From assembly GCF_900112415.1 (NCBI RefSeq), contig NZ_FOLV01000011.1:1-64000 (forward strand): a stretch of 64,000 nucleotides of DNA, in the 5' to 3' direction. Each line of letters starts with the position of its first letter. Position 1 is the first letter of the stretch. The DNA comes from Bacillus sp. 491mf (lineage in GTDB: Bacteria > Bacillota > Bacilli > Bacillales > Bacillaceae_G). The notes under the pieces were generated by a model. That model was given only the letters and a program-made list of their open reading frames with translations. It was not told where the DNA came from and made no database searches. Positions 21,283 to 29,889 of this stretch are shown here, piece after piece. The position numbers were made by a program, and so were the translations under genes.

Positions 21283-21555
21283 TACAATGACTCCTTTCAA
21301 TTTCTAAATAATGGGACATACATATTACATTATATTAATTTATGGAGTATTAATCTATTTTAATGCTCTTTCAATCCGTTCTTTTGTATCCTCAGTCAAA
21401 AAAGGCTTTGGAACCTTGTATTGCTCCTCAAAAATTCGATTAATTCATTCATATTGGTGGGACCCCATGTTGCAAGAAATACTTAATCATAGTACACCAC
21501 AAATCATCTTAAAATCTAATTTATTTGTATAATTAATGTAAAAAGGAGAGCTAAA

Positions 21556-23832: not shown

Positions 23833-23913
23833 ATTTAACAATCATGATGGTGGCACTATCTACCTAAATGGTGAACAAGTTTATTACCAATAATCTGTTT
23901 CTGGGGTATCGCC

Positions 23914-24041
23914 CATACCCATCAAGCTAAGATTTTAAAGTACCCCCAAAACGAAAATTTTATCTCTTCTTAGTTGTCTATGGGAGTCTAGTTCATTTGT
24001 TGTTTTAGGAAATAATGAATTTATAACTATAGTAGGGGTAG
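23914..24041. mobile_element. IS231-end MITE copy, about 128 bp, right end degraded
   Basis: Left end CATACCCATCAAGCTAAG followed by TACCCCCAAAACGAAAATTTT. The right half (TTGTTTTAGGAAATAATG...AACTATAGTAGGGGTAG) aligns to the intact copy at 29634-29761 with many changes. The left flank GGGTATCGCC(C) fits the IS231 target pattern GGG-N5-CCC. Confidence 0.7.
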
Positions 24042-24065
24042 AGTTCAGGAAAATGTTGATTTTAT

Positions 24066-24215
24066 ACGCTAAGGATATGCAGGATACGAGAGCAGTTTGA
24101 ACTGTCAAATGCTGTTGTGACAGGGATGTATGAAATCCTGCATACAGCAGAGGGAACAGAAAGCTGGCAAACTCTTGGTATGAACGGATTCCTGAGACTT
24201 GGTTACTGCTTATAA
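24066..24215 (+). pseudogene. unnamed gene remnant
   Basis: A 49-codon open frame reads ...REQFELSNAVVTGMYEIL and GTESWQTLGMNGFLRLGY before TAA. Composition is protein-like, but there is no start codon or ribosome site. I do not recognise it. It ends exactly where the boundary repeat TACGTTATGTTAACC begins. The rest of 23833-24390 holds the MITE and no other gene. Confidence 0.3.
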
Positions 24216-24232
24216 TGATACGTTATGTTAAC
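24214..24232 (+). repeat. gene-boundary repeat, upstream type, copy 1
   Basis: AATGATACGTTATGTTAACC, matching AATGTTACGTTATGTTAACC at 25140-25159 in 19 of 20 positions. Each copy stands upstream of a gene that is closed by the downstream-type sequence ACTTCCGCTAACGA. Confidence 0.7.
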
Positions 24233-24390
24233 CTGACATAAATCCAGCATGCAAAAAACTTCTTAAGTCATTTTTATCTAAAAAACATGGATTATAATGG
24301 AAAAATAGATTAATATAGGATATTGAAACAGGTAATCTTTCCCTTCTCTTGAATAAGGGGAGGTTGTAGAAATGAACATAAGGAGTTTAG

Positions 24391-25047
24391 ATGAACACTA
24401 TGAAGAAGTATGGATTATTAAGTATACCTCTTATTCTTTTCAGTTGGGACTTATTATCGCATTTCAATTTCCAAATTGTATTGAACATGATAATTGTTTT
24501 GATTCTGCTAGCTATTCTTTTAAAACGTACAACACTTCAAAATATTTTTGATTGGATCATTGGTAGTTGTTTTTCTATATATTTTTGTTTCCTGTATATG
24601 AAGACAATTAAAATTAGCTTCTTTTACTCTCAAATGAATCACACAACAGAGGAAATAAAAAGAATGATTACATTATCAGTCAATCTGATACCATTCAAAG
24701 GAATTATAGATATATTGCAACATAATCCTTCTGCTTTTTATCAAGTCTTCGGAAATGGAATTATGCTTGCTCCTTTTACATTTGCTATGCTGTATTTTAA
24801 GTGGGTAATAAGTATTAGACAAGCTATCTGGTACTCATTCCTTTGTACAGTGGCTATTGAATTCATTCAATTCATACAGACTTGTATATCAGCTCTATTT
24901 GGATTAGGCGAAGGTAGAAGTACAGACATTGATGACGTAATCTTAAATACTATAAGTGCTGTGGTAGGTATTGTTTGTTACCTTCTATGGTGTAAAATTG
25001 AAAACCGATTTAGCAGAAAAATAAGAGACGACAACATACCTATTTAA
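24391..25047 (+). CDS. VanZ-like membrane protein
   Basis: 218 residues with about five or six membrane helices. The VanZ-family pattern is visible: VNLIPFKGI, then NGIMLAPFTFAM, a helix with VAIEFIQFI, and the acidic segment STDIDDVILNTISAVVGI. VanZ gives low-level teicoplanin tolerance in enterococci; most family members have no known role. Clear AAGGAG site 5 nt before ATG 24391. The unit is bracketed by the boundary repeats at 24214 and 25048. Confidence 0.82.
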   Translation: MNTMKKYGLLSIPLILFSWDLLSHFNFQIVLNMIIVLILLAILLKRTTLQNIFDWIIGSCFSIYFCFLYMKTIKISFFYSQMNHTTEEIKRMITLSVNLIPFKGIIDILQHNPSAFYQVFGNGIMLAPFTFAMLYFKWVISIRQAIWYSFLCTVAIEFIQFIQTCISALFGLGEGRSTDIDDVILNTISAVVGIVCYLLWCKIENRFSRKIRDDNIPI

Positions 25048-25061
25048 CTTCCGCTAACGAG
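25048..25061 (+). repeat. gene-boundary repeat, downstream type, copy 1
   Basis: ACTTCCGCTAACGA directly after the VanZ-like stop codon. A second perfect copy follows the gene at 25240 (25563-25576), and a degenerate one (ACTTCCGATAAT) follows the GNAT gene at 20141. Confidence 0.7.
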
Positions 25062-25075
25062 AATTATATGAACAC

Positions 25076-25110
25076 AAAAGTCCCCCAGTTAAACAATCTG
25101 GAGGACTTTT
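25076..25110 (+). terminator. terminator of the VanZ-like unit
   Basis: AAAAGTCCCCCAG...CTGGAGGACTTTT, a good stem followed by a T run. Confidence 0.8.
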
Positions 25111-25139
25111 AATAGTCTCCTAAATACATTGAATCCCGA

Positions 25140-25159
25140 TAATGTTACGTTATGTTAAC
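25140..25159 (+). repeat. gene-boundary repeat, upstream type, copy 2
   Basis: AATGTTACGTTATGTTAACC; the partner of the copy at 24214. It stands 80 bp before the start of the next small gene. Confidence 0.7.
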
Positions 25160-25239
25160 CGAGCATGAATATCCTATTCATCCAAACTTGCACAAAAGTG
25201 TCCTTGCTAATGGTACAATTAGGATAACGGAGGAATATT

Positions 25240-25563
25240 ATGGGATACCTTAATGAGCTTTATGTAATACTGTTTTTTCTAATCGGCACTGGAATATTCG
25301 TAATTATCAAGTCTGATTCACCAAAAATCAGGAAAAAAAATCTATCATTCGTAATGGTCAGTTTAGGGATAAATATACTCGCAATTCCAATGGCTTTTTT
25401 TATAGGTGGAATGGCAACAGCTCCCCCAGATAGTACTGAACTTGATTTTTGGGGAGGATTTCTCTGTGTTCAGGGAATACCGCTTCTCATACTACTTCTA
25501 GCTTTAGTTTGGTGGTTTATCGTTGGAATAAGGAAAAAGTCCACATGTAGGATTTTAAAATGA
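25240..25563 (+). CDS. small membrane protein, 107 aa
   Basis: Three hydrophobic segments: LYVILFFLIGTGIFVIIK, FVMVSLGINILAIPMAFFIGG and GIPLLILLLALVWWFIVGI, with a short basic cytoplasmic loop (SPKIRKKN) and an external turn (APPDSTELDFWGG). Good CGGAGG site before the ATG. The family is not recognised. It is bracketed by boundary repeats on both sides, like the VanZ-like gene, and closed by a terminator. Confidence 0.65.
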   Translation: MGYLNELYVILFFLIGTGIFVIIKSDSPKIRKKNLSFVMVSLGINILAIPMAFFIGGMATAPPDSTELDFWGGFLCVQGIPLLILLLALVWWFIVGIRKKSTCRILK

Positions 25564-25576
25564 CTTCCGCTAACGA
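25563..25576 (+). repeat. gene-boundary repeat, downstream type, copy 2
   Basis: ACTTCCGCTAACGA, identical to the copy at 25048, overlapping the stop codon of the preceding gene by one base. Confidence 0.7.
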
Positions 25577-25587
25577 ATTTTACGTCA

Positions 25588-25621
25588 ACTAGCTCCTCGA
25601 AAGAGGGGCTAGTCGTTTTTT
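25588..25621 (+). terminator. terminator of the 25240 gene
   Basis: ACTAGCTCCTC-GAAA-GAGGGGCTAGT followed by a T run. Confidence 0.85.
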
Positions 25622-25694
25622 ACAATAGCAAAGATGAGATTTCACTTTTAGAAACTGTCTTAGCGTATAAAATTCACGTTTTGCTGTCAATACC

Positions 25695-26734
25695 CAATGC
25701 CCATCAAGCTAATAAAGTAAATTATTAGATACGAAATGATCCTGGTTTCAAAACTAGCAAGTGATAAAAAAGTAGGCATGCTAAAGAAGCCTATTAAAAT
25801 GCGATTTTTTCGCTATGCAGCTTGTCTATGCTTCACCGTCGTTTTATACACAATCCCTAGAATATCAAAGACCGTCATCTTCTTATACCTATGACATTTA
25901 CGACCGTTTTTTTGAGCGGCTGATAAAGGCGATGCAGAATTTTTAAAAGTTCTTCTGTGCCAACGGCTATCGCTTGAAACAGTAACGGAAAGTAATCTGT
26001 AATCATATAAGTCACACTCTAGGCGTTCTCTTTTTATATTTTTACATTCATCAATTTCAAAGAATGACTTCCACGTTTTAAACAAAATTTCACTCTGCCA
26101 ACGAAGTGAATATAATGAATGCACGTAGTTCGTCGGTACTTCTTCTAGCGACGTGTTCGTGATATATACATTCATGCCCATTAAACGTTTACTTTTATCA
26201 TTCATGACAATGCTTTTTTCTTTTTACGTATCGCTTGGTTTTTCAGACGTGTTTGCGTTTGATCGTCGGTTAAACGCAAACATGTGCTGGAAGTTTCTAA
26301 TTTTGGATAATGTATGCCTCGGGGATTTCCATCGTTTCACCAGGGATTAGACCAGACAGCATTTGTGTCATATCAAGCTGGATTAAAGCGTTGATTCAGT
26401 ACTTCTGAGCTCATAAGTACTCCAGTGGAATCTTCTAACTGACTGCACAATTGTGTAAGTGATGTGCTAGCAATTTCTTGACTGAGCCATACGCAAAGGG
26501 CAATGAGTTCGTTTGCTTGATACTTACTAAATCGCTGTACAAAGCCAACTTGGTTGGCGATATCTTGTAGGGCTACTGGAGATAAAAAGTATTGTAGCTC
26601 TTGTGCGAAAAGATTCAGTTCATTTGAAATAGTAGGATTCATTAAAAACACCATCCTTTCTCATAAACTTCTTACGATAAGCATAGCGTTTTTTTATTTT
26701 GAAGATGTGGTTTTAACTTTGTTTGATGGGCATG
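25695..26734 (-). mobile_element. defective IS231-like insertion sequence
   Basis: About 1.04 kb from the left end CAATGCCCATCAAGCT to the right end TTTGATGGGCATG (to 26734), with the transposase on the minus strand. Known IS231 elements are near 1.65 kb, so several hundred bases are lost. The right flank GGGTGGGACCC (26735-26745) has the GGG-N5-CCC target pattern, but the left flank differs, so the two ends do not share one target duplication. Confidence 0.78.
25813..26654 (-). pseudogene. IS231-like transposase, deleted and frameshifted
   Basis: N-terminal part 26373-26654 (FVQRFSKYQANELIALCVWLSQ) is homologous to the remnant at 19002. The C-terminal part 25813-26205 keeps YSLRWQSEILFKTWKSF, i.e. 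the Y-R-E-K signature with the catalytic Glu of the IS4 superfamily. Between them (26205-26372) the frame is broken, with scraps such as IPGETMEIPEAYIIQN. Most of the DDE core with both Asp residues is missing, so it cannot transpose on its own. Confidence 0.88.
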
Positions 26735-26886
26735 GGGTGGGACCCATAATAGAAATAATTTAAGAGAGTGAAATATTTTTTTAGTAGGTTATTAGTAAAA
26801 CTTATTAAATTAATAAGAAAAACAAAATTTAATTATCGCTAAATGTCTTATAGGATTAATAAAAAGGAGTGTCTGGAGGGATTTAT

Positions 26887-27348
26887 ATGGAAATTACAAT
26901 TAAACCAGTTGCATATGTTCATAATTCTCGTGAAGAAATGAGAGATGATAATTGGGGTTGTGTTTTTTCAGTAATTGAACTAACTGATGAATTAAATAAA
27001 TCTGCATTACAAGGAATAGAAGATTTTTCACACTTAGAAGTGATTTTTTACTTTGATAAAGTATCTGATGATAAAGTCCAGTATGAAGCAAGGCACCCAA
27101 GAAATAACCCTAATTTCCCGAAAGTTGGCATTTTTTCGCAAAGAGGGAAAAATAGACCGAATAAATTGGGTGTAACTACAGTTGAATTGATAGAGCATAC
27201 TGGAAATAAGTTAGTGGTAAAAGGATTAGATGCAATAGATGGAACGCCTATTATTGATATTAAACCTGTAATGAAGGAATTTCTTCCTAAGAATGAAATT
27301 AAACAAGCAAATTGGTCTACTGTTTTAATGAAAGATTATTGGAAGTGA
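26887..27348 (+). CDS. TrmO/TsaA-like (UPF0066) tRNA t6A N6-methyltransferase family protein
   Basis: 153 residues. The fold-typical parts are visible: ITIKPVAYVHNSRE, the helix with IEDFSHLEVIFYFDKV, RHPRNNPNFPKVGIFSQRGKNRPNKLG (the SAM/tRNA-binding loop region) and LDAIDGTPIIDIKP. Characterised TrmO methylates N6 of t6A37 in tRNA; this shorter version lacks the extra C-terminal domain of E. coli TrmO. ATG 26887 has GGAGGG upstream. It lies inside the IS231-bounded cassette, followed 26 bp later by a GNAT gene. Confidence 0.82.
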   Translation: MEITIKPVAYVHNSREEMRDDNWGCVFSVIELTDELNKSALQGIEDFSHLEVIFYFDKVSDDKVQYEARHPRNNPNFPKVGIFSQRGKNRPNKLGVTTVELIEHTGNKLVVKGLDAIDGTPIIDIKPVMKEFLPKNEIKQANWSTVLMKDYWK

Positions 27349-27374
27349 TGTGATAGAGAAAAGGGGGTATATAT

Positions 27375-27938
27375 GTGAGCACAGTTCAAAAAAATATTTT
27401 AGCTTGTTATAACGGGATACATATTCGTGTTTTCGATAATAAGAAAGATGATATTGAACAGTTAACCCAAGTATTAAATAAGTCATATAAAAAATTGGCT
27501 GATTTAGGTTTTAATTATCTGGCAAGTCATCAGGATTCTAGTATTACTCTTGAACGAATTAACAAGGCATTATGCCTTGTTGCCATTCGAAATAATAAAA
27601 TTATTGGTTCAATTTCTTATTACTCACCAGAGAAAAACAAAGGATGTAATTGGTATAACAAAGATAATGTAGCAACAATAGGCCAGTTTGGCATCCATCC
27701 TTCTTATCAATCAATGGGAATCGGAAGAAAGTTGATTGAATTAGTTGAAGAGTTAGCAATAAAAGAAGGGATAGAGGAGCTCGCATTAGATACAGCTGAG
27801 GGAGCCGGTCATCTTATTAAATATTATGGTGATAAGGGATATCGTTTTATTGAATATATCAATTGGGAAATTACAAATTACAGAAGTGTTGTTTTAAGTA
27901 AAAAATTAATTAAAGTAACTACTGATAACAAGGATTAG
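27375..27938 (+). CDS. GNAT acetyltransferase
   Basis: 187 residues, GTG start behind AAAGGGGG. The GNAT core is present: LVAIRNNKIIGSISYY (strands 2-3), IGQFGIHPSYQSMGIGRKLIELVEELA (motif A acetyl-CoA loop QSMGIG) and AGHLIKYYGDKGYRF (motif B). Substrate unknown. Probably co-transcribed with the TrmO-like gene and carried by the same cassette. Confidence 0.85.
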   Translation: MSTVQKNILACYNGIHIRVFDNKKDDIEQLTQVLNKSYKKLADLGFNYLASHQDSSITLERINKALCLVAIRNNKIIGSISYYSPEKNKGCNWYNKDNVATIGQFGIHPSYQSMGIGRKLIELVEELAIKEGIEELALDTAEGAGHLIKYYGDKGYRFIEYINWEITNYRSVVLSKKLIKVTTDNKD

Positions 27939-28289
27939 GTGAATAGGATGTCTCTTTCTTAGAATACGGAAGGGGTTTTTGGTAATGAAACTTAGTAGTT
28001 TATAAGCGATACTTTGCGGTCTATGACAGCAACCCTGTCACTACCTCTTTATAATGTTTTGAATCTATACTTTTCTTGCTGATTTTGAGGATATAAGGAG
28101 AATATGGACAAAGTCAATGATTGCAGGGAAATGAAAGCTAACTATACATATTTGCTTACATTAAAATTCACTTGATCTTTGCGCCCGCAAAAGGAAGGGA
28201 CAGTGCCTATCAAATTGTAATCATTGATGATGTTCCAAATAAGGCTAAATTAGAAAACATCTCATATTTTTAATTCCTATAATTTGTTA
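27939..28289. other. gene-free stretch with a possible gene scrap
   Basis: No supported gene. One plus frame near 28170-28270 reads IFAPAKGRDSAYQIVIIDDV and ends ENISYF, protein-like but without a start; it cannot be named. Confidence 0.3.
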
Positions 28290-28421
28290 AATGTTGAGAG
28301 ATAAAAAAATATTTTGAAACACCCCCATAACGAAAATTTTTACCTTTCTACAGTTATTTATAAGAACTCGGCTCATTTTTTTCGTTTTGGGAACAATGCA
28401 TTTCTTAACTTGATGGCGATG
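28290..28421. mobile_element. IS231-end MITE copy
   Basis: Left end degenerate (ATGTTGAGAGATAAAAAA). The inner part ACCCCCATAACGAAAATTTTT...TTTTTCGTTTTGGGAAC and the right end CTTAACTTGATGGCGATG (to 28421) match the family. Its right flank TGTCAATACC repeats the left flank of the defective IS at 25685. Confidence 0.75.
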
Positions 28422-28631
28422 TGTCAATACCTCTATATGTGAAATGAATATACGGAAAATTTTAATTGTATCCAATGGATGAACAAGAAACCTTTGTAGG
28501 GTGACTTTATCTTGAATTTTTCTTCTCAGTCTGTGACCAAATGAATACAAGGTAGTTAGAAGCGCTTCATGTAAATGTTTTTCTTTATCTAATAAGTGGA
28601 TTCGTTATGATTTTTAAAGGAGGTTTTGCTA

Positions 28632-29568: not shown

Positions 29569-29633
29569 ATAGCTCCTCCACATGTAAATATTAAAAGATA
29601 GAGTAACTTTAACCACTAAAAAGGGGGCCTCCC

Positions 29634-29761
29634 CATACCCATCAACTTAAGAATTCAGAATTACCCCAAAACGAAAAAATGAACTAAATCCTCATAGACA
29701 CCTACGAAAAGATAAAAATTTCGTTTTGGGGGCATTTCAAAATGTAAGTTTGATGGGCATG
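29634..29761. mobile_element. intact IS231-end MITE, 128 bp
   Basis: Best copy of the family. Ends CATACCCATCAACTTAAGA and TGTAAGTTTGATGGGCATG are inverted repeats; inside, ACCCCAAAACGAAAAA pairs with TTTCGTTTTGGGGG to form a terminator-like stem. The left flank GGGGGCCTCCC is a perfect GGG-N5-CCC target. A second copy begins 11 bp downstream. Confidence 0.82.
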
Positions 29762-29772
29762 TGACGCGACCC

Positions 29773-29889
29773 CATCGCCATCAAGCTAAGAAAAGAAACT
29801 ATCCCAAAATGAGAAATTTGACACCTCAGATGAAAATGTACAAATTCTTTGTTTAGGGTCGTTATAAAATTCTTAAGTTGATGGTGATG
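29773..29889. mobile_element. IS231-end MITE, 117 bp, in tandem with the previous copy
   Basis: Ends CATCGCCATCAAGCTAAGAA and TTCTTAAGTTGATGGTGATG; inner stem less well conserved (ATCCCAAAATGAGAAA). It is separated from the first copy by 11 bp (TGACGCGACCC). Between 29890 and 30008 only a short 3' gene scrap (TVTKESVIEEFKDLL, to TAA 30004-30006) is seen. Confidence 0.75.

Follow-up and report, generated by a model that had tools for sequence, protein, structure and literature searches.

The question raised by this locus is whether a pair of genes lying between the remains of two different IS231-type elements came to its present position as a single mobile unit, carried by the outermost end of each. 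In the window, the whole 64-kb stretch of DNA that was analysed, the first-pass annotation had drawn attention to a 10-bp repeat outside two IS231-type ends. The repeat is real: an exact-match scan of the window places the 10-mer TGTCAATACC at 25685-25694 and at 28422-28431 and nowhere else, and a search with one mismatch allowed gives seven matches against 4.33 expected. Next to the left copy begins an IS231-type left end (25696-25713), and an IS231-type right end (28404-28421) stops next to the right copy. From left to right, the interval contains a defective IS, a trmO-like gene, a GNAT gene and a left-truncated MITE. Our preferred reading, to which we give a probability of about 0.72, is that the segment 25696-28421, with the deleted IS, both genes and the truncated MITE, was inserted as one unit by a cut-and-paste process, with the transposase supplied in trans, in a manner like that of MIC231.

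The two elements that supply the outer ends are both decayed. The IS (25696-26734, minus strand) is an IS231-type element of the IS4 family with ends at 25696-25713 and 26717-26734. Compared with an intact 1.64-kb Peribacillus element (L084), it survives as three pieces of 92, 90 and 84% identity, about 0.6 kb having been lost at two internal gaps. In place of an intact single-ORF DDE transposase with the YREK motif there are two fragments on the minus strand, a C-terminal remnant of 130 aa (25813-26205; PF01609, and positions 257-319 of NF033592, below cut-off) and an N-terminal remnant of 93 aa (26373-26654; positions 2-75 of NF033592, also below cut-off). Because the transposase is not intact, the element is named an IS231-type remnant and is placed by its ends and its DNA homology. 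The available excerpts of PMC2266710 give the IS231 end pattern as CAT-------AA--TAA---, with direct repeats of 10-12 bp, and record passenger genes. Of the eight conserved end positions, seven are kept at the left end, where the first base is A and not C, seven at the right end of the IS, and all eight at the right end of the block; the ends are of the IS231 form. IS4-family elements on Peribacillus and Priestia plasmids (L084-L086) share 80-92% DNA identity with the retained parts of the IS; unlike the block, they are about 1.64 kb long, have one annotated transposase gene and carry no passengers.

The MITE (28308-28421, plus strand) is 79% identical to one MITE relative (L087) and 82% to another (L088). 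Its left end is gone, homology to other MITEs beginning near 28308, so that its own flanks cannot be judged alone. Elsewhere in the window, at 29634-29889, two IS231-type MITEs stand in tandem with a single 11-bp spacer, TGACGCGACCC, and the flanks match around neither of them; a flank comparison of three other MITE pairs in the window found a target duplication in none.

Both passenger reading frames are open. The first (26887-27348, plus strand) encodes a TrmO-like protein of 153 aa (PF01980, 93.5 bits; TIGR00104, 96.8 bits against a cut-off of 93.25), in which Pfam recognizes only the N-terminal TrmO domain. The second (27375-27938, plus strand) encodes a GNAT acetyltransferase of 187 aa (PF00583, E 1.2e-14). 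A known defence system was considered and rejected, there being no PADLOC match for the four proteins submitted, as was a passenger promoter, since promoter-like sites number nine where 12.8 are expected.

The length of the outer repeat depends on how its borders are drawn. In the register used by relatives of the IS, the flanks of the block form an 11-bp repeat, TGTCAATACCC on the left (25685-25695, plus strand) and TGTCAATACCT on the right (28422-28432, plus strand), identical at 10 of 11 positions; if the left border is moved one base earlier, the flanks are identical at 10 of 10. The best reading of the repeat is a target duplication of 11 bp in which one base is mismatched. From base composition alone the chance of the 10-mer match would be about 1e-6. 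However, the flanks of IS231-type elements share a motif, and this makes the match less improbable than it looks: under the flank motif, built from 22 tip-outward flanks chosen from 41 collected, the chance of TGTCAATACC is about 1.4e-3. It could therefore be asked whether a right flank of the common motif and a left Tn3 tip of the same motif (described below) simply came to agree after unrelated rearrangements. The strength of the shared motif lends this some weight, as does a comparison in which the ends of different elements were paired: 3 of 405 pairings agree at 10/10 positions and a further 7 at 9/10 (the 405 include three MITE pairs of the window, none of which matched). Two of the three perfect pairings are trivial, the same 11 bp lying between adjacent elements, while the third joins the unrelated L086 left and L084 right flanks. 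Yet although the right flank of the block fits the general motif, TGTCAATACC has the less common motif bases at positions 3, 5 and 6, its chance under the motif is low, and none of the 22 motif-building flanks begins with it. Coincidence is thus very improbable, and the outer repeat is significant, though less so than it looks.

The left copy of the repeat coincides with the tip of an inverted repeat of Tn3 type (IR; 25659-25695, minus strand), and it is this tip that meets the block. The partner IR lies at 24035-24073 (plus strand; GGGG...CGCTAAG) and agrees with a Bacillales IR consensus at 32 of 39 positions, the right IR agreeing at 27 of 38. A 28-nt arm of the right IR is 86% complementary to 24046-24073 and, once the empty site is joined, the full IRs agree at 30 of 39 positions in their alignment. 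A similar IR adjoins a Tn3 transposase gene (PF01526) at another locus (L151), where a single such IR was seen; the left IR is identical to it at 27 of 42 positions and the right IR at 26 of 38. The scores of the left-IR alignments, with the right IR, the consensus and the L151 repeat, were each reached in none of 500 shuffles. The cassette so defined (24035-25695, 1.66 kb) has terminal IRs of about 38 bp that start with GGGG and end with TAAG, presumably the mark of the Tn3 family. It contains a VanZ-family membrane protein gene (24391-25047, plus strand; PF04892, E 3.2e-20) and a small hydrophobic ORF of 107 aa (25240-25563, plus strand; no Pfam match, and one NCBIfam match far below cut-off), and no transposase. 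We call it Tn3-type rather than a proven member of the Tn3 family, because a search around it for a 5-bp Tn3 duplication gave at best 4/5 in 70 comparisons.

The other tip of this cassette is abutted by an IS231-type MITE (23914-24034, plus strand), whose right end is eroded and whose left flank is GGGTATCGCC; it is 79% identical to a Priestia MITE (L088), 79% to the MITE at 29634 and 71% to the MITE of the block. IS231-type elements therefore stand at both tips of the cassette, and both tips have been disturbed by IS231-type insertions. The first-pass annotation had the outermost ends acting together, and this part of its reading gains support; what it missed was the Tn3-type cassette as the target.

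IS231-type ends at such tips are also seen among relatives of the IS. In one of them (L094), the element lies inside a Tn3-type IR tip; its duplication, GGGTACCGTCA, is 11/11 and shares the register of the block. Four of 28 Tn3-type tips have an IS231-type end outside them at distance 0, the inner side being free of such ends in all 28. These tips come from stretches of six genomes that were all picked for containing the IS, and two of the four (L155 and L161) are the IS copies through which the genomes were reached. The possibility that the IS end includes the 12-bp flanks was discarded, since in L094 they are directly duplicated inside the Tn3-type IR. Other arrangements of tips and elements were met along the way. 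The IS of L084 lies between two Tn3-type repeats placed tip to tip, and at L085, L086, L087, L091, L182 and L184 there is no duplication and both flanks carry the same motif, directed outward (tip-element-tip). On contig C1 of genome G187, the terminal 11 bp of a tip stand in tandem with no IS present, exactly at one place (L159) and with 9/11 agreement at another (L160); such a tandem is possibly the footprint of a precise excision. The same contig has a 1.7-kb Tn3-type pair (L148; IRs at 1118-1154 and 2816-2852 of the locus) containing an M20 peptidase gene; an IS231-type end adjoins one of its tips, a nesting the same as that in the window. A record labelled as a Klebsiella grimontii plasmid (CP079755.1; L089) has five places similar to the IS as well as an IS231-type MITE end, and may include misassigned Bacillaceae sequence.

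The first-pass annotation also relied on the absence of matching flanks around the IS itself. The observation is correct, as the IS alone is flanked by sequences that agree at 5 of 11 positions, against 10 of 11 for the outer pair of the block. The argument built on it is weak, because 11 of 15 relatives that retain both ends likewise have no duplication, a full 10- or 11-bp duplication being found in the other four (L094, L095, L102 and L103; the count omits the single-ended and duplicate loci L089, L090, L097, L099, L100 and L101). So high a proportion without duplications suggests that exchange of flanks may be common in this family. IS231-type copies at two loci might accordingly have recombined, swapping the interior of an older simple insertion at this site and bringing in trmO-GNAT with no transposition of the block. 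We find this improbable: the outer ends of the block differ in type, a CATGCCC-like IS end facing a CATCGCC MITE end, and they offer little homology for exchange, the MITE of the block matching an IS of the family (L086) along only 55 bases of the query, close to one end.

The inner flank of the IS is GGGTGGGACCC (26735-26745, plus strand). It is target-like and unlike the outer flank, being a perfect GGGN5CCC, which we take to be the published IS231A consensus. This motif matches four times in the window, at 23904-23914, 26735-26745 and 29623-29634, a count that is not unusual (2.08 expected; at least four in 18 of 100 shuffles), and each of the three places adjoins an IS231-type end. If the block moved as a unit, a flank of this kind is to be expected, because the IS would have travelled with DNA of its old neighbourhood; GGGTGGGACCC seems to be such a mark of an earlier insertion site, carried along with the IS. 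At 21455-21469 the window has TGGTGGGACCC followed by CATG, one mismatch away from the inner IS flank, which is possibly the remnant of an IS231-type end or of the earlier site of the IS, and possibly chance.

The inner flank also bears on the main rival, in which the IS and the MITE inserted separately at a single Tn3-tip hot spot. The same target would have been used twice, the trmO-GNAT DNA would have come in between them afterwards, the left end of the MITE being lost in the meantime, and the outer duplication would be inherited from the first insertion. Tandem IS231-type elements that share 11 bp are indeed present in the window (29761/29773) and in G187 (L093/L104). However, a further event would be needed to bring in GGGTGGGACCC together with 1.5 kb of unrelated sequence at just the right place between the two elements, and a target-like inner flank that differs from the outer one is left unexplained. 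We therefore hold separate insertion to be unlikely. Joint use of the outermost ends, as the first-pass annotation proposed, is the best explanation, supported by the Tn3-tip target, the register of the relative and the inner flank. Against insertion as a single unit are the one difference among the 11 duplicated bases, the A at the first position of the left end, the fit of the right flank to the general motif, the lack of a duplication in most relatives and the lack of a 5-bp Tn3 duplication around the Tn3-type cassette. Moreover, the right end of the IS lies within the block, so that a clean cassette with only two ends is not what is seen.

A sequence of events leading to the present arrangement can be proposed. 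An IS231-type IS would have inserted beside the trmO-GNAT pair, with a MITE whose ends were of the same type on the far side. Decay would then have removed about 0.6 kb of the transposase gene from the IS and the left end from the MITE. A transposase supplied in trans could have paired the left end of the IS with the right end of the MITE and excised the whole block, which would have been pasted into the right-IR tip of the small Tn3-type cassette, so that 10-11 bp of the tip were copied. The ends, the duplication, the target, the decay and the open passenger frames are seen in the sequence. The order of these steps, like the single transposition and the trans-acting transposase, is what we infer from the structure; the decay may instead have followed the move.

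Composite structures of similar form occur elsewhere. Among 14 further stretches one (L188) has a full duplication, a second (L185) reaching 9/11. L188 (G187:C1:2652448-2660474) is an 8.0-kb composite with mixed ends, CATCGCC-type on the left and CATGCCC-type on the right, flanked on both sides by an 11/11 duplication, GGGTAGCGTCA; another IS231-type end lies directly to its right. It contains ApbE, FMN-binding and RnfD-like proteins and, as judged by eye, two-component genes. As evidence it is weaker than the block, since its 11-mer is a common flank motif and chance is likelier there. A 4.2-kb pair of IS231-type ends (L178; G187:C1:4260911-4265097) surrounds two beta-lactamase-family (PF00144) genes, with no transposase ORF and no duplication; it looks like a MIC, here in a genome from outside the B. 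cereus group.

The block itself was not encountered elsewhere in the collections searched. Plasmid records covered at best 11% of a 7-kb query and, in another search, 15% of the query, leaving most of the block unmatched; the IS queries returned no plasmid named B. cereus or B. thuringiensis among 27 records each, the group being apparently absent from the collections. Nothing close to the block was present in the phage collection. Relatives of TrmO (E <= 1e-25) occur in 54 of 299 genomes and relatives of the GNAT protein in 3 of 299; at 18 of these loci (15 of the 54 for TrmO, all three for GNAT) the partner passenger gene was absent within 1.5 kb, and so was any IS231-type end with up to three mismatches. 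Scans of viral contigs gave no TrmO or GNAT relative and no exact MITE end, and a 17-base Tn3-tip pattern seen in four of them was taken as chance. For the neighbouring genes, the lipoprotein had no match in the genome contigs in a close-relative search, the oxidoreductase reached at best 74% there (best 80 of 272 relatives), and parE at best 79% among 299 genomes drawn evenly from one order plus 19 of the family of the best match.

The arrangement suggests that decayed elements could still move genes, and offers a specific and checkable case: genes of a tRNA-modification type and an acetyltransferase type between IS231-type ends, parked in the end of a Tn3-type element. IS231-type elements are thereby seen to be associated with Tn3-type tips beyond the B. 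cereus group, in which this was described, namely in a Peribacillus plasmid (L084) and in other Bacillales genomes. A broader proposal, which we put forward tentatively and hold at somewhat less than even odds, is that the tips of small Tn3-type cassettes serve as reusable pads on which IS231-type cassettes are stacked, and that two crippled elements, an IS with a deleted transposase and a MITE with one end, can make good each other's defects in cis, turning ordinary chromosomal genes such as trmO into cargo, also outside the B. cereus group.

Several known systems come close to this arrangement. The available excerpts of PMC1196294 describe MIC231 as trans-activated by the IS231 transposase, IS231L as nested in the IRs of Tn3-family elements, and TnBt9727 as having a single cryptic CDS; those of PMC4133298 describe TIME composites in which two Tn3-derived MITEs mobilise the DNA between them, and those of PMC8090892, on B. 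thuringiensis plasmids, add nothing on the block. As far as these excerpts go, the block is like MIC231 of the B. cereus group in its IS231-type outer ends (25696-25713 and 28404-28421) around passengers, its target duplication of about 10 bp (10/11 or 10/10) and its lack of a working transposase, remnants of the gene being present and no intact copy; it, too, would have been mobile through an IS231 transposase acting in trans. It departs from MIC231, so described, in drawing its ends from two separate decayed elements, in retaining an IS end in its interior and in having trmO and a GNAT gene as passengers. The insertion of IS231L in TnBt9727 and in a vestigial class II element is likewise, by the excerpts of PMC1196294, a case of an IS231-type element in a Tn3-family terminal repeat, whereas here a gene-carrying block rather than a simple IS occupies the tip, with a MITE at the other tip. 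The TIME-COMP elements, as excerpted in PMC4133298, share with the block the mobilisation of genes by non-autonomous terminal elements, but use Tn3 ends and 5-bp duplications where the block uses IS4-family ends and 10-11 bp. The block is a sound though unexceptional case of bacterial gene shuffling of a familiar kind and represents no new class of mechanism.
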